A program made the position numbers and the translations under genes. Under the pieces are notes generated by a model. It was not told the origin of the DNA and did no database searches. It saw only the letters and a program-made list of their open reading frames with translations. 64,000 bases of DNA from Neisseria sp. (lineage in GTDB: Bacteria; Pseudomonadota; Gammaproteobacteria; Burkholderiales; Neisseriaceae): positions 1 to 64,000 of the forward strand of contig NZ_JAUMZU010000006.1 of assembly GCF_030527965.1 (NCBI RefSeq). Direction: 5' to 3'. Shown here one piece after another: positions 13,967 through 62,661 of this stretch. How positions within the stretch are numbered: the first letter of the stretch is position 1; each line of letters opens with the position of its first letter.

Positions 13967-14141
13967 GTTGTTTTGGGCAAAGCGATATTTCTTGCTTAAG
14001 ATTAAAGAAAACCGGCTTGATAGGCATTGAAAAATATTCATAAAATCAAATTATGTATATCTGCTAATTCAATGTTTTTCATTGGAATTTTAATTTTCAG
14101 ACAGGCATTCTGGTTTTATCACGATAAACAAGGAGAATATG

Positions 14142-14492
14142 ATGATTTCAATCCATGAGCAAGATTACGGCTTGGATATTGCGCTTTTCAATGAGTTTAC
14201 TTTGGAAGACTTTCGGAATTTTGAAGAGGCGGCGCTGGATATTGCGCAACGTGTGCACCGCCCTGATTTACTGTTGGATTTATCAATGCTGAAAGATTTT
14301 ACGATTGATATGGCAGTGGAGCAGCTCAAATTTCTGCGCGGGCATGAGAATGAATTCGGGCGTATCGCCATTGTGGTGGACGATGTATGGATTAAACTGG
14401 GTGCGCATATTTCTAGCCTGCTAACCCGGCAACATCCGAAATATTTTGATGATGTTGCTTCGGCGCAAGCCTGGTTGAACGCGCGCGTTTGA
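14142..14492 (+). CDS. SpoIIAA-like (STAS-fold) protein
   Basis: The 116-residue soluble protein resembles the SpoIIAA-like family (PF11964): a short N-terminal strand, an LEDFRNFEEAALDIAQ helix, LLLDLSMLKDFTIDMAVEQLKF, a strand plus helix RIAIVVDDVWIKLGAHISSLL, and a C-terminal F...ASAQAWL helix. Members are small cytoplasmic proteins of unknown role with a STAS-like fold. AGGAGA lies 5 bases from the ATG at 14142 and only 2 from the ATG at 14139. It is monocistronic, between DUS copies. Confidence 0.72.
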   Translation: MISIHEQDYGLDIALFNEFTLEDFRNFEEAALDIAQRVHRPDLLLDLSMLKDFTIDMAVEQLKFLRGHENEFGRIAIVVDDVWIKLGAHISSLLTRQHPKYFDDVASAQAWLNARV

Positions 14493-14505
14493 TAATTGGC
14501 ACATA

Positions 14506-14550
14506 AACCATGCCTGCCTGAAACTGTTCAGACAGGCATGGTTGTTTTTT
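14506..14550. terminator. DUS inverted-repeat terminator with a variant left arm
   Basis: The left arm holds TGCCTGCCTGAA (one change from the canonical DUS) and the right arm a perfect copy, giving a 17-bp stem with one G-T-type mismatch, followed by TTTTTT. It serves the SpoIIAA-like gene and the convergent small gene. Confidence 0.85.
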
Positions 14551-14579
14551 AGGCTGTTGCGAGATATTTGATAAAGCTT

Positions 14580-14828
14580 TTAATTGCTTCTGTGCTTTTG
14601 AATCTCAATGGCGCGGCCAACGCTGACGCCATAACCGTAAGTAGGATTTTTCTCTGTGCTGGGCAGGCGTTGGTTTATCTCGACTTGGGTCAGATAGTCG
14701 GCCAGGTTTTCCCGATCTTCCATACTGAGCGTGCTCAGAGCACCGGCATGTTTTTGAATGTCTTCTTTACAGTGAAGAACAATCTCTTTCGGATTGGTTT
14801 TCGTGAATAAAGCAAATAATTTACGCAT
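14580..14828 (-). CDS. Small hypothetical protein
   Basis: An 82-residue, charged, soluble-looking protein with no signal peptide or membrane segment. A helical, acidic middle (LSMEDRENLADYLTQVEINQRL) is the main feature. I do not recognise the family. The reading frame has Neisseria-like codon use, ends just before a shared terminator and begins after an AT-rich promoter-like region, which supports a real gene. No partner gene is evident. Confidence 0.5.
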   Translation of the reverse strand: MRKLFALFTKTNPKEIVLHCKEDIQKHAGALSTLSMEDRENLADYLTQVEINQRLPSTEKNPTYGYGVSVGRAIEIQKHRSN

Positions 14829-15154
14829 TTTGTTTTCCGTATTTTTATTGGTTTGGTTAAGTTTATAGTGGATAAGCAGAGAATATTTATTCGTTTTAAA
14901 TAAAAAGAGCTTTCCTAAATGTTTTTTAGTTATAAAGTAAGTTATAAAGATTATATAGATAATCGGTATTAAAAATCAACCAAACGGTGTTTTTGCTGTG
15001 ATTGGTGTTGCAAAATGTTACGGCGTGCACATTTATGGATTGCGTTAACAAGGGAATGAAACAGAAAGAAAAGCGCTTACAATGACGTTGCCAAAAGATG
15101 TGGCCGGTGGCTGCGAAATAAGAGAACCTTTTATTTAAAACATGTAAAACCGAC
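14829..15154. other. AT-rich intergenic region between the small gene and leuS
   Basis: About 325 bp with no gene seen. Its left half holds the probable promoter of the minus-strand small gene (TTTATA and TTAAAT-like elements near 14860-14905). I see no RNA gene, repeat or operator that I can name. Confidence 0.4.
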
Positions 15155-15188
15155 TAAAGCCTGTCTGAAATTTTTCAGACAGGCTTTA
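15155..15188. terminator. DUS inverted-repeat terminator of leuS
   Basis: A 16-bp perfect stem (15155-15170 and 15173-15188) with AGCCTGTCTGAA in each arm and a 2-base gap lies 27 bases after the leuS stop. Confidence 0.85.
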
Positions 15189-15214
15189 TTACAGAGGTTT
15201 ATGGTTAAACGCGA

Positions 15215-18105
<2,891 letters not shown>

Positions 18106-48615: not shown

Positions 48616-50742
48616 TTATGCTGCGGCGCCGTTGTTTTGACGCGTTTGCCCGACTTCTTTCAGTGTTTTCAAAATATGCTCGTCGTCAAACAAGGTTTCC
48701 AGCGGCACGGGCATTTTGCGGCGCCAGTTGGGGTATTCGACGGAAGTGCCGGGCAGGTTGAACGGTTGTTCCATATCCAGCAGGTTTTCCAGTTGCACGC
48801 CGACGAGCTTGCTTCGGCATGCCGCCAGATAACGGTGGATGGCGCGGTTTAAACCGTCGTGCATGGCCATGCTGAGTGCGTCGCCTTCATACTCGGGCGG
48901 CAGGAAACCGTCTCGGTGCAGGACATCGAGCAGGGCTTGTTTTTCGTGCAGGCGCCGGTCGTAGAGCGGTTTCAGGCGGTTGTGATCCAAGATGCCCAAG
49001 TCGGCGAAAAGCCGCAGATCGTTGCAATGCCAATAACTTTTCAACGAGGGCAAATCGTGGGTGCCGATGGTGGCGAAGGCTTCCGGCGGGAAATCCTGCG
49101 GCGGGGGAAAGCGGTTGCCAGCGCAGGCAAAATAAAGCACGCAATAAGATAAAATGCGGTATTGGTTGAGTTTGCTGCGCACTTCATTGGGCACGGTGCC
49201 CAAATCTTCGCCGATAACGAGGCAGCGGTTGCGGTGGCTTTCAACCGTTAGCGCTGCCATCATGGCGTCAAACGGGTAATACACGTAAAGGCCGTCTGAA
49301 GAATGTTGGTTTTGCGGAATCAGCCACAGGCGGAACAAGCCCATCACATGGTCGATGCGGATAACGCCGAAATACTGCATGTTGGCGCGCAATATCTCGA
49401 TAAACGGGCGCAGACCGCGCTTGACCAAGCGATGTGGGTGCCACGGCGGCAGGTTCCAGTTTTGGCCGACCGGCCCCAGCGGATCGGGCGGGGCGCCTAT
49501 GGATTCTGCGGTGCAGTAGAGTGCGCGGTCGCCCCATACGTCGGCGCTGCCGCGGGAGCTGCTGACTGCCAGATCGCCGTAAAGCCCGAGCTTCATGCCG
49601 GTTTTGCCGCACAGTGTGCGGATGTCTGCAAGTTGTTGGGCCGCCAGCCATTGCAACCAAGCGTAAAAACGCACCGGCCGGGCATGTTGTTCGAGAAGCT
49701 GTTGACGTTGCCTGTCTGAAAGCGTTTGCCATTCTTGGCGCCAGCCCAGCCAGCCTATGCGCGTTTCCGGCTCGTTGTCGCTTGAATGGGCTTGTGCGTC
49801 GAGTGCGTCAAACAAAGCATGGTTGAGCAAGGCATTGCCGTGTTGTTTTAAAAACGCTTCGAATTCGGCGCGCCGTTGTGTTGTTTTGCGGGCGCGGCTG
49901 GTTTCGAAAAAGGCGAAGGTCTTTTCCAATGCGGCCAGTTTCAAGCGGCATACGGCGGCGTAGTCGACCCATTCCGTTTGGCGCAGGGCGGAAACTTCTT
50001 GCTGCGTTTCACTGTTTTGCCACCAGTTTTGCACTGCTTTGCTGCTGAACTCAGGTATCGCTTCAATATCGAGATAGATGAAATTCAGCCAGCGGCGTGA
50101 AGACGCGCTGTAAGGGCTTGCCCATTCGGGCACAGCGGGATAAAGCGCGTGCAGCGGATTGAGCCCGATAAAATCGGCGCCAGCATGCGTGGCTTGTTCA
50201 ACGAGGCAGCGCAAATCGCCGAAATCGCCGATGCCCCAGTTACGCGCGGAACGCAGGCTGTAAAGCTGTATGTTGAGCCCCCATGCTTGATGGGTTTGCA
50301 GGGCATCGGGGCGATAGGCGGCGGTGGGGGAAACAATCAGGAACAGGTGGTAAGTTTGTGAGGAGGCGGTTAAGGTGAGCGTGTAATAGCCGTAGGGAAG
50401 CGGGTCGAGCGCTAGGGTTGGCGCGGCGCTGTGGCCTTGTGCCAGCATACGGCCGTTTTCGTCGGCGAGTGCGTAATCGAGGGGCGAGTTTGGCGGAAGC
50501 GAGGTTTTGTCTGTGCGGCAGAGGATATTTTGGCCTTCATAAGCAACCAGTATGTCGTCGAATTCGGCTTCGGCATGAGCATCTGGGAGAGAATGCCTGT
50601 CTGAAACGGTTGTTTGAAACAGGCGCACAAAATATTCCACCGATTCGGGTTTGGCCTGAATCAGATTGCCATCGATGTCATAATGAGATAAAGCAATGCC
50701 AAGTGCGGCAGCTTCCTGTTTCAGCGCTTCGGAAAGGTCCAT
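48616..50742 (-). CDS. malQ: 4-alpha-glucanotransferase MalQ (amylomaltase)
   Basis: A GH77 enzyme that transfers maltodextrin segments and makes glucose and longer chains for GlgP. The 708 residues show N-terminal extension domains, FGDLRCLVEQATHAGADFIGLNPLHALYP, GDLAVSSSRGSADVWGD (acceptor region), RIDHVMGLFRLW (nucleophile Asp), VIGEDLGTVP (acid Glu) and FATIGTHDLPSLKSY, all GH77 motifs. The foreign-dialect DUS at 49289-49300 is inside this gene, as are two native-type DUS at its 5' end and middle. It is first of the glg run. Confidence 0.95.
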   Translation of the reverse strand: MDLSEALKQEAAALGIALSHYDIDGNLIQAKPESVEYFVRLFQTTVSDRHSLPDAHAEAEFDDILVAYEGQNILCRTDKTSLPPNSPLDYALADENGRMLAQGHSAAPTLALDPLPYGYYTLTLTASSQTYHLFLIVSPTAAYRPDALQTHQAWGLNIQLYSLRSARNWGIGDFGDLRCLVEQATHAGADFIGLNPLHALYPAVPEWASPYSASSRRWLNFIYLDIEAIPEFSSKAVQNWWQNSETQQEVSALRQTEWVDYAAVCRLKLAALEKTFAFFETSRARKTTQRRAEFEAFLKQHGNALLNHALFDALDAQAHSSDNEPETRIGWLGWRQEWQTLSDRQRQQLLEQHARPVRFYAWLQWLAAQQLADIRTLCGKTGMKLGLYGDLAVSSSRGSADVWGDRALYCTAESIGAPPDPLGPVGQNWNLPPWHPHRLVKRGLRPFIEILRANMQYFGVIRIDHVMGLFRLWLIPQNQHSSDGLYVYYPFDAMMAALTVESHRNRCLVIGEDLGTVPNEVRSKLNQYRILSYCVLYFACAGNRFPPPQDFPPEAFATIGTHDLPSLKSYWHCNDLRLFADLGILDHNRLKPLYDRRLHEKQALLDVLHRDGFLPPEYEGDALSMAMHDGLNRAIHRYLAACRSKLVGVQLENLLDMEQPFNLPGTSVEYPNWRRKMPVPLETLFDDEHILKTLKEVGQTRQNNGAAA
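49289..49300 (+). repeat. AG-DUS (foreign-dialect uptake sequence) inside malQ
   Basis: AGGCCGTCTGAA exactly matches the DUS dialect of N. meningitidis, N. gonorrhoeae and relatives, not the TGCCTGTCTGAA used everywhere else in the window. Read in the gene it falls in SSDGLYVYY. Confidence 0.7.
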
Positions 50743-56464: not shown

Positions 56465-59296
56465 ATGAGTGAATATAACGATAACGACACCATCCGCATT
56501 CGCGGCGCACGCACCCACAATCTGAAAAACATCGATCTTGATATTCCCCGCCACAAGCTGGTGGTGGTAACCGGCTTGTCGGGCAGCGGTAAATCTTCGC
56601 TGGCGTTTGACACCTTATATGCCGAAGGGCAGCGGCGTTATGTGGAAAGCCTTTCCGCCTATGCGCGCCAGTTTTTGCAGATGATGGATAAGCCCGATGT
56701 CGATTTAATCGAAGGCCTGTCGCCCGCTATTTCCATCGAGCAGAAATCCACCAGCCACAACCCGCGCTCCACCGTCGGCACGGTTACCGAAATTCACGAT
56801 TATCTGCGTCTGTTATACGCCCGCGTCGGCACACCATATTGCCCCGAGCACGATTTGCCTTTGTCCAGCCAAACCGTATCGCAGATGGTTGATCATGTAT
56901 TAAGCCTGCCTGAAGATTCTCGCGTGATGATTCTGGCGCCGGCCGTGCGCGAGCGTAAAGGCGAGTTCGTTGATTTTTTTGCCGACTTGCAAGTGCAAGG
57001 CTTCGCACGGGTGCGGGTTGACGGCGAAGTCTATCAGCTCGACGAAGTGCCAAAGCTGGAAAAAAACATCAAACACAATATCGACGTGGTGATTGACCGC
57101 GTTAAAGTCAAAGCCGATATGAAACAGCGCTTGGCCGAGAGTTTTGAAACCGCCCTGCGCCATGGCGGCGAGCGTGCGTTGGCTTTGGAAATGGATAACG
57201 GCAAAGAGCATTGGTTTTCCGCCAAATTCGCCTGCCCCGTATGCTCATACAGCCTGCCCGAACTCGAACCGCGCCTGTTTTCGTTTAACAACCCGATGGG
57301 TTCCTGCCCCACTTGCGACGGCTTGGGCAGCATGAATTTTTTCGACCCCGAGCGCGTGGTTATGCACCCAGAATTATCCTTGGCCGCCGGTGCCATCAAA
57401 GGCTGGGATAAGCGCAACCAATTCTATTTTCAAATGATTCAATCGCTGGCCGACCATTACGGCTTCGATGTCAACACCCCGTTTGAAAGCCTGCCTGAAA
57501 AAGTGCAAAAAATCGTTTTGCACGGTTCGGGTAAAGAAGTGATTGATTTCCGCTACCTTTCCGAACGCGGCACCTCATTCAACCGCAGCCACGCTTTTGA
57601 AGGCATTATCCCCAATCTGGAGCGCCGCTATCGCGAAACCGATTCCGCCACCGTGCGTGAAGAATTGGCGCAATACCAAAGCCACCGCGCCTGCCCGTCA
57701 TGCGGCGGCGCGCGGTTGCGCAAAGAAGCGCGCTATGTGTATATCGGCAAACAGCCGTTGCACCAGATTTCCGCCATTCCGCTCAAACAAGCGCTTGAGT
57801 TTTTTGAAAAATTGGAATTAGACGGCAATAAAAAACAAATCGCCGAAAAAATCCTTAAAGAAATTACCGAGCGGCTGGGCTTTCTGATTAATGTCGGCTT
57901 GGATTATCTCAACCTCGCCCGCAGCGCCGAAACCTTATCGGGCGGCGAAGCGCAGCGCATCCGCCTCGCCAGCCAAATCGGCTCGGGGCTAACCGGCGTT
58001 ATGTATGTGCTCGACGAGCCTTCCATCGGCCTTCACCAGCGCGACAACGACCGCTTGCTCGCCACGCTCAAACGCCTGCGCGATTTAGGCAACAGCGTGA
58101 TTGTGGTCGAGCACGACGAAGATGCCATCCGCGAAGCCGATTTTGTCGTCGATATGGGGCCGGGCGCCGGCGAGCACGGCGGCAACGTGATTATTGCCGG
58201 CAGCCCGAAAACAGTGGCCGCCTGCAAAGAATCGGTTACCGGCCAATATCTGAGCGGCAGCAAAGCCATTGCCGTGCCGAAAGAGCGCACGCCCGTCGAC
58301 CCCGAAAGAATGCTGGTGCTGAGCGGCGCACGCGGCAACAATCTGAAAAACGTTACCCTAAAACTGCCGCTCGGCCTGATTACCTGCATTACCGGCGTTT
58401 CAGGCAGCGGCAAATCCACCTTAATCAACGACACGCTGGCCAAAATCACCGCGCGCGAGCTGAACCGTGCCCATGAAGAGCCGGCACCCTACGACGATAT
58501 TCAAGGCCTCGAACATCTCGACAAAGTCATCAACGTCGACCAATCGCCGATCGGCCGCACGCCGCGTTCCAACCCCGCCACCTATACCGGCCTGTTTACG
58601 CCCATCCGCGAACTGTTTGCCGGCGTGCCGCTTTCGCGTGAGCGCGGCTATAACGTCGGCCGTTTCTCGTTTAACGTTAAAGGCGGCCGCTGCGAAGCCT
58701 GCCAAGGCGACGGCGTGATTAAAGTGGAAATGCACTTCCTGCCCGATGTATACGTACCCTGCGAAGTCTGCCACGGCAAGCGCTACAACCGCGAAACCTT
58801 GGAAGTGCAATACAAAGGCAAAAACATTAGCCAAGTGTTGGATATGACCGTAGAAGAAGCGCGCGAATTCTTCGATGCCGTGCCGACCATCTCGCGCAAA
58901 CTGCAAACCCTGATGGATGTCGGCCTCGGTTACATTCGCCTCGGCCAATCTGCTACCACCCTTTCCGGCGGCGAAGCCCAACGCGTCAAACTCGCCTTGG
59001 AGCTTTCCAAACGCGACACCGGCCGAACCCTCTATATCCTAGACGAACCCACCACCGGCTTGCATTTTGCCGACATTGCTCTGTTATTAGAGGTAATAGG
59101 CCGTCTGAAAGGCAAAGGCAACTCGATTGTGATTATCGAACATAATCTGGACGTCATTAAAACCGCCGATTGGATTGTTGATTTAGGGCCGGAAGGCGGC
59201 GATGGCGGCGGCAGAATTATTGCTGAAGGTTCGCCGGAGGAAGTGAGCATGGTAAAAGAGAGTCATACTGGAAGATATTTGAAGATTGGTTTATAG
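56465..59296 (+). CDS. uvrA: Excinuclease ABC subunit UvrA
   Basis: The damage-recognition ATPase of nucleotide excision repair. The 943 residues hold two ABC modules: Walker A GLSGSGKS (37-44) and GVSGSGKS (about 644-651), with signatures [12 protein letters not shown] and [12 protein letters not shown]. Zinc-binding pairs CPVC...CPTC, CPSC and CEAC...CEVC are intact. The last roughly 200 bp have more AT-rich codons than the rest and carry a foreign-dialect DUS (59098-59109). No own terminator follows; the next gene begins 46 bp later. Confidence 0.97.
59098..59109 (+). repeat. AG-DUS (foreign-dialect uptake sequence) near the 3' end of uvrA
   Basis: AGGCCGTCTGAA is a perfect match to the meningococcal/gonococcal dialect, read in uvrA as Gly-Arg-Leu-Lys. 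It lies about 235 bp before the AT-rich ATPase gene. Confidence 0.75.
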
Positions 59297-59342
59297 TTTT
59301 TCACTATATATAAATATACTGTATAAGTAATAGGATGATAAT

Positions 59343-60782
59343 ATGAAACAAATAAATTTGAGTGCACGCAATCTTTGGGGTAACGAAGCTGCTGATGATG
59401 AAAGACCTGAAATATTAAATTCATATTTTGTGAGGCAACATAAAGATGATTGGGATGATTTTTTTAATTTAGATGATGTTCGCTACTCAATAGCAAGAGC
59501 TCGCAAAGGAATGGGAAAATCTGCACTTCTTGCAGAGTGTGCTTACCGTAATAAAGATAATGATAAATATCTTGTAATAAATATAAAAGGTTCTGATTTA
59601 ATTGCACATAAAAGGTTTCTAAATGATGAGAAAAAGAGTGTTATTGAATATGTTTTTGATTGGAAACAAAGAATTTGTGCTGTAATTAACTCTAATTTAG
59701 CCAATATTATTGGAATTGCAAAAAATGATGATGAAATGACTATTGTTGAGAATGCTGAGATGTATGGGTTTAAATCTAAATCACTTCTTAGTGCTTTATT
59801 TGATAGATTAAAGCTTAAAATAGCTGGAAATGAAGTTGGAAGAACAAGAACCGAGATTCATAATCATGAGGAAATCCTATCACGTGTAACTCTCCCTAAA
59901 AAAATATTATTGTTAATAGATGATATCGATGCAACTTTTAAAAATTCTCCTCAAGAATGCTTAAATTTATCTACATTTTTCTCAGCATGTAGGGAAATTG
60001 CAGCAAGCTTTGACGATATCATTATTCGAACTATAGTACGTACTGATGTATGGGCATGCATTCGCGCAACTGATGAATCTTTGGATAAGGTTGAGCAATA
60101 TATATTTGACTTGAATTGGAGTAAAAATGAATTTAGATCATTCCTTGCAGAAAGAATTTTTTCATATTGCAAACGTGAGAAGTTTTCGATTGATATAAGT
60201 AACAAGGAAGACTTATTGCCATTAGTCTTTGCAAAAAAGTTTCCTTGGGGTAAAAGTAAGGCTGAGTCATATCGGGTTATCCACATTTATGCTGGAGGAA
60301 GACCTAGATGGGCTGCGCAATTATGTAAATTGGCAGGAAAGGAAACTGAGAAAACAAAAACTTCATCAGTAATAACATTTGGTTCAATTAAACAAGTATT
60401 GTTTGAATACGGTCAAGCACGATTAGCTGATATCCCAAGGGAACATGCACACCAATGCCCGAATATCCAAGATATTATAAATGCCTTCTCAAAACAAAGG
60501 ATAAGATATACTACTCAAGAGCTACTTAATTTTATAGAAAATAAAATATTTTCACACATGCAGATCGATATTGATGGGCATAAAATAGATGAGCCACTGA
60601 AACTAGCTCGTTATCTCTTTAGAATAGGGTTTATTATGGGTGTTGACAAAAAACATGAAGAAAACCCAGAATATTATCAATATGAAGATAAGCCTAGCTT
60701 ATTAACAAACGAAGCTAATTTGGATGATGGGATGACTTGGATGGTTCATTATGCTTATCAAGCTGTATTATCTCTTAAATAA
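59343..60782 (+). CDS. Stand-alone P-loop ATPase resembling the Sll1717 family; candidate defence gene
   Basis: The 479-residue soluble protein has a Walker A ARKGMGKS (53-60) and Walker B ILLLIDDID (about 189-197), then RTIVRTDVWACI (sensor/arginine-type region) and an aromatic-rich helical C-terminal part with no recognised effector. The spacing of a short N-terminal region, a K-G-x-G-K-S loop after a strand of the form RYSIARARKG and a long insert before Walker B resembles what I recall of Sll1717-family P-loop ATPases. The DNA is markedly AT-rich against its neighbours, has no DUS, and sits directly between uvrA and its expected terminator. No partner nuclease is adjacent. Function unknown. 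Confidence 0.7.
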   Translation: MKQINLSARNLWGNEAADDERPEILNSYFVRQHKDDWDDFFNLDDVRYSIARARKGMGKSALLAECAYRNKDNDKYLVINIKGSDLIAHKRFLNDEKKSVIEYVFDWKQRICAVINSNLANIIGIAKNDDEMTIVENAEMYGFKSKSLLSALFDRLKLKIAGNEVGRTRTEIHNHEEILSRVTLPKKILLLIDDIDATFKNSPQECLNLSTFFSACREIAASFDDIIIRTIVRTDVWACIRATDESLDKVEQYIFDLNWSKNEFRSFLAERIFSYCKREKFSIDISNKEDLLPLVFAKKFPWGKSKAESYRVIHIYAGGRPRWAAQLCKLAGKETEKTKTSSVITFGSIKQVLFEYGQARLADIPREHAHQCPNIQDIINAFSKQRIRYTTQELLNFIENKIFSHMQIDIDGHKIDEPLKLARYLFRIGFIMGVDKKHEENPEYYQYEDKPSLLTNEANLDDGMTWMVHYAYQAVLSLK

Positions 60783-60829
60783 TTTTATTTAATGGGGCTA
60801 AATTTTATAATTGTTTTTGAAAATAAATG

Positions 60830-60862
60830 AATGCCTGTCTGAAAATTTGTCAGACAGGCATT
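60830..60862. terminator. DUS inverted-repeat terminator
   Basis: AATGCCTGTCTGA (60830-60842) faces its complement (60850-60862). It serves pabBC on the minus strand and the ATPase on the plus; it probably was the uvrA terminator before the ATPase arrived. Confidence 0.82.
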
Positions 60863-60864
60863 GT

Positions 60865-62661
60865 TTATTTCAACGATACCTCAAACACCCCACGCAAAGC
60901 GTTGCTTAACAATATTTTCTCTGCACGCAAAAGGTCTGCTTTGGTCAGGCGGCTTTCAATAATTGGGAAGCCACCGAGATGGAGCTCGGGATGGTGGATA
61001 ACTTGCCGGCGCATGATGCCGTCTAAGATGTCGAGATCGGTTGTCGGGGTGCGGTAGGCGCCGTCGAGCAGCAGGTAGACATTGCTGCGGCCGCCTTCCA
61101 GCAGCCAGCCGCTTTGGTTGAAAAATAGGCAGTCGAAGGCGCCGGCTGCGGCGGCATCCTGCCAGCCTCGGTCGAAAACGGCGCGCTGGCTGGTTTTGAA
61201 ACGGCGCAGGAAGTCGGTATCAGGCAGGCGGGTTTCGGCGAGGGTAACGTATTGGGGTGCTGATAAATTGGTTAGCGGAGCGGCTTCGTGTTGTAAACTG
61301 CCATCGGGGTGCAGGCTGATTTTCAGGCGGTGGGGCTGCTTGGGCAGGGCGGCGATGGCGGCTTGGATGGTCTGCTGTATATGCGTTGCGTTATAGGGGA
61401 TATTCAAGATGCGCGCGTTTTGGCTTAGGCGGCTGAGGTGATCGGCTAACAGCGGCGCTTGCCCGTTTTCGACGCGCAGGGTTTCGATCAGACCGAATTC
61501 GGGCGGTAGGCGGCTGACGAAACGGCTTTTCCATTGGCACTCGTCGTATTCGCTTTGGCTGTCGCTATCCCAAACAATGCCGGAGCCGACGCCGTAAACG
61601 GCATGGTAATGTTTTGCGCTTCGGTTTGAAGGGGTCAGTTGCAGCGTGCGGATCACCACATTCAGCGTGCCGTGAAAGCCGAGGCCGCTGGCGCAGGGTG
61701 CGAGATGGCCGATGCTGCCGGTATAGAGGCCGCGCGGTTCGGTTTCAAGCTGGTTAATCAGCTGCATGCTCATTCGTTTGGGCGCGCCTGTGATGGAGCC
61801 GCAGGGAAAGGTGGCGCGGAAAATATCGGCGGCGCTGGTTTGCGGGCAGGTTTGTGCGTGAACGGCGCTGGTCATTTGCCAGACGGTGCCGAAACGGGAA
61901 ACCTTGAATGGTTCGGGCACGCGCACGCTGCCGGTGCGGGCGATTTTGCCTAAGTCGTTGCGCAGTAAATCAACAATCATGGTATTTTCTGCGCGGTTTT
62001 TGGGGTCGGCCTGCAAGGCGAGGGCGCGTTGTTCGTCTTGGCCGTCGTTTAAGACGGGAGCGGTGCCTTTCATGGGTTCGGTTTGGATTTCGCCGTTTTC
62101 AGCGATTTTTAAAAAGCATTCGGGCGAGAAGCAAAGCGTCCATATCGGTTGGCGCTGCGGGTCGGGCAGGCAGGAAAGGGCAGCGTAAGGCACGGGCTGG
62201 CGCAGCCTTTGATAGAGTTTGATCGGGTTGCCGTAGGCTTGGGCATGAAGGCGGGTGGTGTAGTTGATTTGGTAGGTGTCGCCGCGCTCGATGGCGGCTT
62301 TAATAAGTGAGATGGCTTGGGTGTAGGCTGTTTTGCTGGTATGGTTTTGCAGGTCGGCAAGCCCGGCCGGGGCTTCGTCGCTGTGTTCCGCCAGCCATTT
62401 TTGTACATCGGAAAGCGGGTGTTTTTCGGAAAACCAATGCAAGGCCAAGTGGCCGTTGGTGTGGGCCGGTAAATGTTGCAGCGGCAGGCCGAATTCGTAA
62501 TCCGCAAAGAGAACGACATGCAGATTTTCCGACCAGCCTTTTTTCAGACAGGCATCTAATGAATCAAGTGCTTCGGGGCGAAGAAATTCGCTGCGGATAT
62601 GGTTTTGAAATAAAACGGCGCGGTTGGCAAGCGCATCGTCAAGCAAGGCGAAATAGGGCAT
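60865..62661 (-). CDS. pabBC: Fused aminodeoxychorismate synthase component I / 4-amino-4-deoxychorismate lyase
   Basis: 598 residues: an N-terminal chorismate-binding PabB part (to about 375; TYQINYTTRLHA, EPMKGTAP, VDLLRNDLGKIA, GSITGAPKRMSMQLI) and a C-terminal PabC PLP lyase (from about 390; FGLIETLRVENG, RFKTSQR with the PLP lysine, EGGRSNVYLL). Together they make p-aminobenzoate for folate. The usual P-I-K-G-T is P-M-K-G-T here. PabA is encoded elsewhere. The fusion is known in several bacteria. A DUS in the N-terminal part encodes DACLKKG. Confidence 0.92.
   Translation of the reverse strand: MPYFALLDDALANRAVLFQNHIRSEFLRPEALDSLDACLKKGWSENLHVVLFADYEFGLPLQHLPAHTNGHLALHWFSEKHPLSDVQKWLAEHSDEAPAGLADLQNHTSKTAYTQAISLIKAAIERGDTYQINYTTRLHAQAYGNPIKLYQRLRQPVPYAALSCLPDPQRQPIWTLCFSPECFLKIAENGEIQTEPMKGTAPVLNDGQDEQRALALQADPKNRAENTMIVDLLRNDLGKIARTGSVRVPEPFKVSRFGTVWQMTSAVHAQTCPQTSAADIFRATFPCGSITGAPKRMSMQLINQLETEPRGLYTGSIGHLAPCASGLGFHGTLNVVIRTLQLTPSNRSAKHYHAVYGVGSGIVWDSDSQSEYDECQWKSRFVSRLPPEFGLIETLRVENGQAPLLADHLSRLSQNARILNIPYNATHIQQTIQAAIAALPKQPHRLKISLHPDGSLQHEAAPLTNLSAPQYVTLAETRLPDTDFLRRFKTSQRAVFDRGWQDAAAAGAFDCLFFNQSGWLLEGGRSNVYLLLDGAYRTPTTDLDILDGIMRRQVIHHPELHLGGFPIIESRLTKADLLRAEKILLSNALRGVFEVSLK

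Follow-up and report, generated by a model that had tools for sequence, protein, structure and literature searches.

The locus downstream of uvrA

The window analyzed here is a stretch of 64,000 nucleotides (nt) from Neisseria sp. (assembly GCF_030527965.1, contig NZ_JAUMZU010000006.1, positions 1 to 64,000 of the forward strand), and our subject is the segment that follows uvrA in it. The uvrA gene, which encodes excinuclease subunit A, lies at 56465..59296 on the plus strand (Pfam UvrA_DNA-bind, 4.9e-42, and UvrA_inter, 9.9e-40) and is the fixed left flank of a slot. The cargo of the slot is one gene at 59343..60782, also on the plus strand, for a 479-amino-acid (aa) P-loop ATPase of the Sll1717 family. 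The right edge lies at 60830..60862, where an inverted pair of TGCCTGTCTGAA, a DNA uptake sequence (DUS) in the dialect of the host, scores as a terminator (it was assigned to neither strand). We consider it highly probable that the segment from the end of uvrA to this terminator serves as a slot in which one or two genes are exchanged, that its cassettes are swapped by homologous recombination and often belong to defense families, and that the ATPase is its occupant in the host, with a putative role in defense.

The composition of the cargo is foreign. The GC content at third codon positions (GC3) is 0.21 in the open reading frame (ORF) of the ATPase versus 0.65 in uvrA; the GC content of the window is 51.5%. 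The original prediction, made from the letters of the window, had described a strongly AT-rich ATPase gene between uvrA and its terminator, and both the composition and the placement held. The 46-bp gap between the two genes (59297..59342, plus strand) has AGGATG ahead of the ATG start codon and contains no DUS, no terminator-like match, and no plus-strand promoter-like match. Beyond the terminator, the right flank in the host genome is a convergent ORF at 60865..62661 on the minus strand, which we take to be pabB-like from reading the protein rather than from a family assignment.

The slot across Neisseria

We recovered uvrA in 44 of 46 Neisseria genomes, a sample with one genome per species in which the host is G000. 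The 1 kb after uvrA had less than 40% GC in 38 of the 44 genomes, versus none (0/44) for the 1 kb before it. Among the flanks of pabB, taken on two sides in 29 other genomes, none was below 40% GC (0/58), and among 1-kb windows located beyond 3 kb to the right, 20 of 295 were. One or more AT-rich cargo ORFs, each at least 90 aa long, were called in 36 genomes. The first cargo ORF was codirectional with uvrA in every case (36/36), the median gap between them was 34 bp, and one of the 36 gaps contained a DUS core.

The cargos themselves are free of DUS. From the DUS density of each genome, 59.9 would be expected in the 58.3 kb of the 36 cargos, and there were none; likewise, ten-base DUS cores numbered zero in cargos versus 1.41 per kb in the right flanks. 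A wider span around the cargos held nine DUS cores in six genomes, all of them outside the called cargo ORFs. For the ATPase gene of the host taken alone, the earlier observation that about 1.5 kb lacks a DUS was correct for each of four words counted, but it is not significant by itself (P = 0.42 for zero in 1440 bp at the host's own DUS density); over the 36 cargos together, the absence is significant. Past the end of the cargo, 22 of 34 genomes have an inverted GTCTGA pair at a distance of no more than 300 bp, versus 76 of 780 random positions.

In other genera of the Neisseriaceae, 1 kb or more could be read after uvrA at 29 loci; 15 of these had less than 40% GC there, and some of the genomes look AT-rich throughout. 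Ten proteins from such genera were scanned; one gave a defense-like match over the cut-off (DndB-like, in G049), and one in G066 has pentapeptide repeats and a SLATT match below the cut-off.

Turnover and edges of the cargo

Different cargos stand between the same flanks in G014, G025, G035, G036, and G037; in G026 and G040; in G002 and G028; in G019 and G024; and in G009, G020, and the pair G005 and G039, the last two of which share one cargo. When such same-flank pairs were aligned with blastn, homology broke off within an interval that runs from 84 nt ahead of the uvrA stop codon to 2 nt past it; it returned at or just past the cargo, where identity was about 80 to 95%. The C-terminal tails of uvrA vary among species, and, going by these other species, the exchanged segment in the window has its left edge in the corresponding tail, 59213..59296 on the plus strand. 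The right flank differs between clades. Homologues of the pabB-like gene are present in 45 of the 46 genomes, and the gene is close to uvrA in the host alone (1 of 44 uvrA loci).

Pairs of genomes whose uvrA genes share 95% identity or more numbered 92, and one of these pairs had a cargo in common. The 38 occupied slots among 43 genomes compared fell into 28 cargo clusters (blastp, 1e-5), some of which profile families would merge, given that blastp did not connect the three Sll1717 copies. When the cargo labels were placed on a quick uvrA tree of 43 rows, at least 35 changes were required for 28 states; the floor is 27, with each unassigned cargo counted as a state of its own. The original prediction had named the same ATPase in place in close relatives as a finding that would speak against import; the relatives have other genes there.

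What the cargos encode

Pfam scans took in 50 of the 58 listed cargo proteins and gave defense-type families in 20 of the 44 genomes. Cargos with AIPR were found in G001, G009, G011, G040 (partial), and G044, and cargos of the OLD type (AAA_15/AAA_21) in G002, G007, G015, G027, G037, and G045. GmrSD was found in G008 and G023, in the latter with a HEPN protein; Abi_alpha in G010; NACHT/NB-ARC in G012; KwaB in G030; and TIR with nSTAND4 in G024 and G026. AIPR, OLD, GmrSD, and the like are well established as defense-type families. The last two of the 20 genomes are G014 and G020, where a DNA methyltransferase with a second, unnamed gene occupies the slot. Matches that are suggestive only were Fic (G018), RelA/SpoT (G019), a helicase (G006), an FRG fragment (G016), and HATPase (G036), and the Sll1717 copies in G000, G004, and G034 belong in this class as well. 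Two further tallies, each over 49 proteins, agree with this picture but do not tell which cargo protein matched: the first 25 PADLOC families shown included HEC-01A, AriA, AbiU, Old, PtuA, GajA, and mad3, and the NCBIfam matches listed included MADS3 and KwaA, among others.

An old DUS within uvrA

The last part of uvrA contains AGGCCGTCTGAA, which we take to be the AG-type DUS, as an exact 12-mer at 59098..59109 on the plus strand, within the codons for I-G-R-L-K. The host genome has 1322 copies of TGCCTGTCTGAA, 23 of AGGCCGTCTGAA, 5 of ATGCCGTCTGAA, and 2 of AGGTCGTCTGAA, and the dialect of the host is TGCCTGTCTGAA. This word was found at about 1900 to 2100 copies in 4 of the 45 other genomes (G006, G026, G029, and G040). 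It matches the wadDUS of N. wadsworthii, which is described in PMC3630211 as the AT-DUS with an inserted T.

The word in uvrA is genus-wide. In 27 of the 44 Neisseria genomes, the same codons spell out AGGCCGTCTGAA without a mismatch; in 16 more the word is one or two bases off, and only G032 lacks it. The exact copies include those in the wad-dialect genomes G000, G026, G029, and G040 and also those in the AT-dialect genomes G009, G015, and G039; in G006, of wad dialect as well, the site reads CGGCCGTCTGAA, one base off. In the four genomes of the muc dialect (G007, G019, G024, and G027), the site is occupied by AGGTCGTCTGAA, the muc word. The Ile codon of the DUS is ATA in 36 of 43 aligned genomes, whereas the next best of 53 Ile columns has ATA in 6 of 43, and ATA makes up 1.8% of Ile codons elsewhere in uvrA. 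The raw counts are 37 of 44 at the DUS site versus 39 of 2216 elsewhere, for which a Fisher value overstates independence because the genes are related by descent. The Arg codon in the DUS is CGT in all genomes versus 11.9% elsewhere. In other genera of the Neisseriaceae, Q, H, K, or E replaces the Neisseria G residue in 28 of 30 loci, and the remaining two (G048 and G049, group g3) have the DUS in muc and AG form. The residue in G032 is Q, and a permease follows uvrA there instead of a cargo; AGGCCGTCTGAA was not found in the G032 genome, which is 85% complete.

From its conservation throughout the genus, the bias to ATA and CGT, and the different residue in other genera, we conclude that the uvrA word is old within Neisseria and that it has probably been retained for being a DUS. 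In species of the wad dialect, this AG-type word is a leftover, kept after a change of dialect because the wad word would change the protein. An old-dialect DUS within a conserved gene is therefore no evidence of import.

Several other DUS-like words were observed. A second copy of AGGCCGTCTGAA in the window, at 49289-49300, is one of the 23 that remain in the wad-dialect host genome. A second intragenic word, GTGCCGTCTGAA, at about base 1797 of the aligned uvrA, is present in 27 of 43 Neisseria genomes and absent in the host. G032 (locus L046), the sole Neisseria genome without AGGCCGTCTGAA, has an inverted pair of GCCGTCTGCA after uvrA, perhaps of another DUS dialect. At three loci of wad-dialect genomes (L082, L084, and L088, in G026, G006, and G040), an inverted DUS pair of the AT dialect lies 70-109 bp past the cargo; it is nearly identical to the pair in the AG-dialect genomes G002, G028, and G041. 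These loci thus bear a genuine mark of another dialect at their right edge, which the window does not.

The Sll1717-family ATPase

The ATPase matched NCBIfam NF047389 (Sll1717 family) over its full length with 216.6 bits (curated cut-off, 75); in Pfam, NACHT and AAA_16 were weak hints only. In 40 sequences, K55-G56-x-G58-K59-S60, D193-D194-x-D196, R233, and R320-P321-R322 are invariant. The first two are in the Walker A region (K-G-M-G-K-S, 59499..59525, plus strand) and the Walker B region (D-D-I-D, 59901..59930, plus strand), respectively. A search for relatives among solved structures gave none that is meaningful (best E-values, 0.017 and 0.094).

Members of the family over the cut-off were found in 6 of 83 Neisseriaceae genomes; in the class, the family is present in 13 of 370 genomes, with the host counted. 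Three of the six are slot cargo (G000, G034, and the stop-interrupted copy in G004) and three lie elsewhere (G010, G043, and the broken copy in G023). The three slot copies are on separate branches of the uvrA tree, and those of the window and G034 are 23% identical. A scan of contigs from GTDB genomes with the single protein as query found no relative of the ATPase, and a later profile scan found 114, of which 80 were kept; the best was from Desulforhopalus (45%). Further relatives were on viral contigs (4), plasmids (4), and phages (1). The phage homologue (37%) is encoded by ORF1 of the inovirus PfAC09; in the linear record of this phage, integrase and toxin-antitoxin genes are located in the direction of the opposite end. 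The homologue on a Nostoc plasmid is about 6.6 kb from a DncV-like cyclase gene, and that on an Acinetobacter plasmid has housekeeping neighbors. Because of the foreign composition of the gene, its presence in 6 of 83 genomes, and a best contig relative in Desulforhopalus, the ATPase looks acquired.

Longer homologues were also seen. Three ORFs from the class (L176, L177, and L178; 768, 782, and 773 aa) have extra N-terminal parts, and in the first two, which were the ones scanned, the N terminus has a match to the nucleoside-deoxyribosyltransferase family PF05014 below the cut-off (0.0075 and 7.2e-05). Another, L185, has a ParA-like stretch, also below the cut-off.

Interpretation and alternative explanations

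Exchange at the slot could work as follows. Homologous recombination, in most cases following natural transformation, would exchange the cassettes; the left crossover would fall in uvrA and the right one in whatever right flank is present locally. The cargo would be expressed at least partly by read-through from uvrA, ending at the inverted-DUS terminator. The Sll1717 ATPase may be a stand-alone switch of the STAND/AAA kind, driven by nucleoside triphosphates, that senses infection by phage and responds by harming the cell or bringing it to arrest.

A number of observations weigh against this interpretation. The slot is not unique in composition, as the 20 AT-rich windows farther to the right, which come from eight genomes, show. 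No cargo of the slot kind was found in four genomes (G017, G032, G038, and G043), and the cargo shared by G005 and G039 has 44% GC. Some genera without the uvrA DUS still have AT-rich genes after uvrA, so the DUS is not necessary for a slot. Eleven genomes have occupants without a telling family (G003, G005, G039, G013, G022, G025, G028, G029, G035, G041, and G042; G039 was classed by its likeness to G005 and, like G021, was unscanned), and the label of a defense slot rests on fewer than half of the genomes. As for the ATPase, no family of PADLOC-DB matched it at E values up to 1, its single-sequence structure model was unusable (predicted local distance difference test score [pLDDT], 32.6), and a relative of a defense panel drawn from 20 genomes, which is small and insensitive, was nearby in 2 of 84 homologue loci. 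Neighboring families of the homologues recur in at most 3 of 83 loci, with no recurrent partner gene, and for this reason the ATPase seems to act alone. A role against phage would thus be a case of guilt by association. Exchange within a species was not seen in our sample of one genome per species. Finally, the right flank of the host was not found in any other genome compared, and exchange at the host slot is for that reason inferred from other species.

The original prediction held that the locus is an imported island, and one could suppose that the 3' end of uvrA and the ATPase came in as one piece from a Neisseria species of another dialect, with a breakpoint near 59000-59100. One part of this stands: the ATPase looks acquired, with its foreign composition, and its position is replaceable. 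The uvrA tail may also be mosaic, since the 135 columns from the DUS onward are nearest to G008 (0.926) and the body of uvrA is nearest to G041 and G012 (0.862); this hint, from few sites in a conserved stretch, is a weak point in favor. The 3' end of uvrA has, however, no host-specific breakpoint. Sliding-window identity and GC3 gave nothing peculiar to the host in that interval: identity from 58997 was 0.863 for the host and 0.885 for the sampled all-pairs mean, and in the last window it was 0.745 for the host, with a similar drop, to 0.771, between other species. The final codons of uvrA are AT-rich, as had been noted (GC3 of 0.46 in the last window), but so are those across the genus (mean of 0.48 in the others). 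Likewise, AGGCCGTCTGAA is present at 59098-59109 and by copy number is not of the host dialect, but wad-dialect relatives are among the 27 genomes with it at the same codons, and it fails as a sign of import. The terminator behind the cargo, moreover, is in the native dialect. Import in one piece is accordingly very unlikely. It has also to be asked if AGGCCGTCTGAA in uvrA is a DUS at all or a coincidence of protein coding. The I-G-R-L-K residues are conserved in most Neisseria, and shared descent alone could preserve their codons. Such a coincidence seems unlikely in view of the ATA and CGT frequencies at the site compared with elsewhere in uvrA, the muc word in the four muc-dialect genomes, and a residue other than G in 28 of the 30 loci from other genera.

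The cargo always follows the end of the same gene, and the uvrA tail is variable, which might suggest that a site-specific integrase, a transposon, or a phage satellite targets the 3' end of uvrA. Between uvrA and the terminator of the host, the cargo is the sole plus-strand ORF of at least 60 aa, and it is not bracketed by any pair of repeats; in other genomes, no recombinase or transposase family matched the 50 scanned cargo proteins (repeats were searched at the host edges only). We regard insertion of this kind as highly improbable. The ATPase might instead occupy the slot without being a defense gene, for example, as an accessory to stress tolerance or DNA repair whose expression is tied to that of UvrA, or as a selfish gene. 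The neighborhoods of its homologues elsewhere, which are not rich in defense genes by the panel used, are in keeping with that. On the other side are the defense families that often occupy other slots, the homologue that an inovirus carries and the one in the vicinity of a cyclase gene, and the patchy distribution of the family, and we think a role outside defense rather unlikely.

Returning to the exchange of cassettes behind uvrA, the parts could be read jointly. The 3' end of uvrA would be a one-sided site for docking and expression that is kept by the genus: its built-in AG-type DUS would mark fragments for uptake, uvrA would supply the left crossover and the transcript, and promoterless defense genes would be swapped in behind the uvrA tail. 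This is possible, but we put it forward tentatively and with more doubt than confidence. If it were true, a single exchange device would be made up of uptake machinery, a repair gene, and an immunity locus, and cargos as yet unnamed, the Sll1717 ATPase included, would be new single-gene defense systems. The 28 clusters from 38 species give a simple address for finding defense genes, behind uvrA; the occupants without a telling family in the 11 genomes are candidates for defense; and the uvrA slot is a clean site for testing the trade of immunity genes by transformation.

Two irregular forms of the left flank were observed. At L044 (G007), uvrA stops early, 154 bp ahead of the cargo ORF, and at L047 (G042), uvrA is in separate pieces. 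Elsewhere in the window, an AT-rich stretch with small ORFs only (13967-15214) adjoins a minus-strand gene at 15215-17845, presumably leuS-like from a reading of its protein rather than from a family assignment. In PMC4269198, leuS/dam is described as a variable site in Neisseria.

Comparison with known systems

We found no paper on uvrA as an exchange site, although it may already figure in the list of minimal mobile elements of Snyder et al. 2007; in the excerpts of the literature found, uvrA appears only as a repair gene with changed expression. The description of the Sll1717 family (NF047389) gives no function; here the ATPase is a single-gene cargo.

Neisseria species have minimal mobile elements, which are whole-gene cassettes between conserved genes that are incorporated by homologous recombination (Saunders & Snyder 2002; Snyder et al. 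2007, as cited in PMC3082526 and PMC4269198), and most of these cassettes encode restriction-modification systems, according to PMC4269198. As in those elements, differing whole-gene cassettes occur between the same flanks at the uvrA slot (in other species, and by extension in the host), and no recombinase of its own was found among host ORFs, host repeats, or the 50 scanned proteins. Unlike the minimal mobile elements as described there, the slot has only its left partner, uvrA, conserved throughout the genus and a right flank that changes between clades, its first cargo gene is always codirectional with uvrA, and many of its families lie beyond restriction-modification.

The core defense hotspots of Pseudomonas aeruginosa, cDHS1 and cDHS2, are flanked by core genes and filled in most genomes by diverse defense genes and genes of unknown function (PMC10250203). 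The uvrA slot resembles them in its occupancy (38 of 43 genomes compared) and in its mixture of diverse defense-type families and unknowns. It differs from the hotspots so described in holding one or two genes, in its genus-wide extent, and in the arrival of its cargo, which would be by transformation and not by a mobile element. The kind of site is already known; the uvrA slot differs in being anchored on one side only, in its strict codirection, and in extending across a whole genus.

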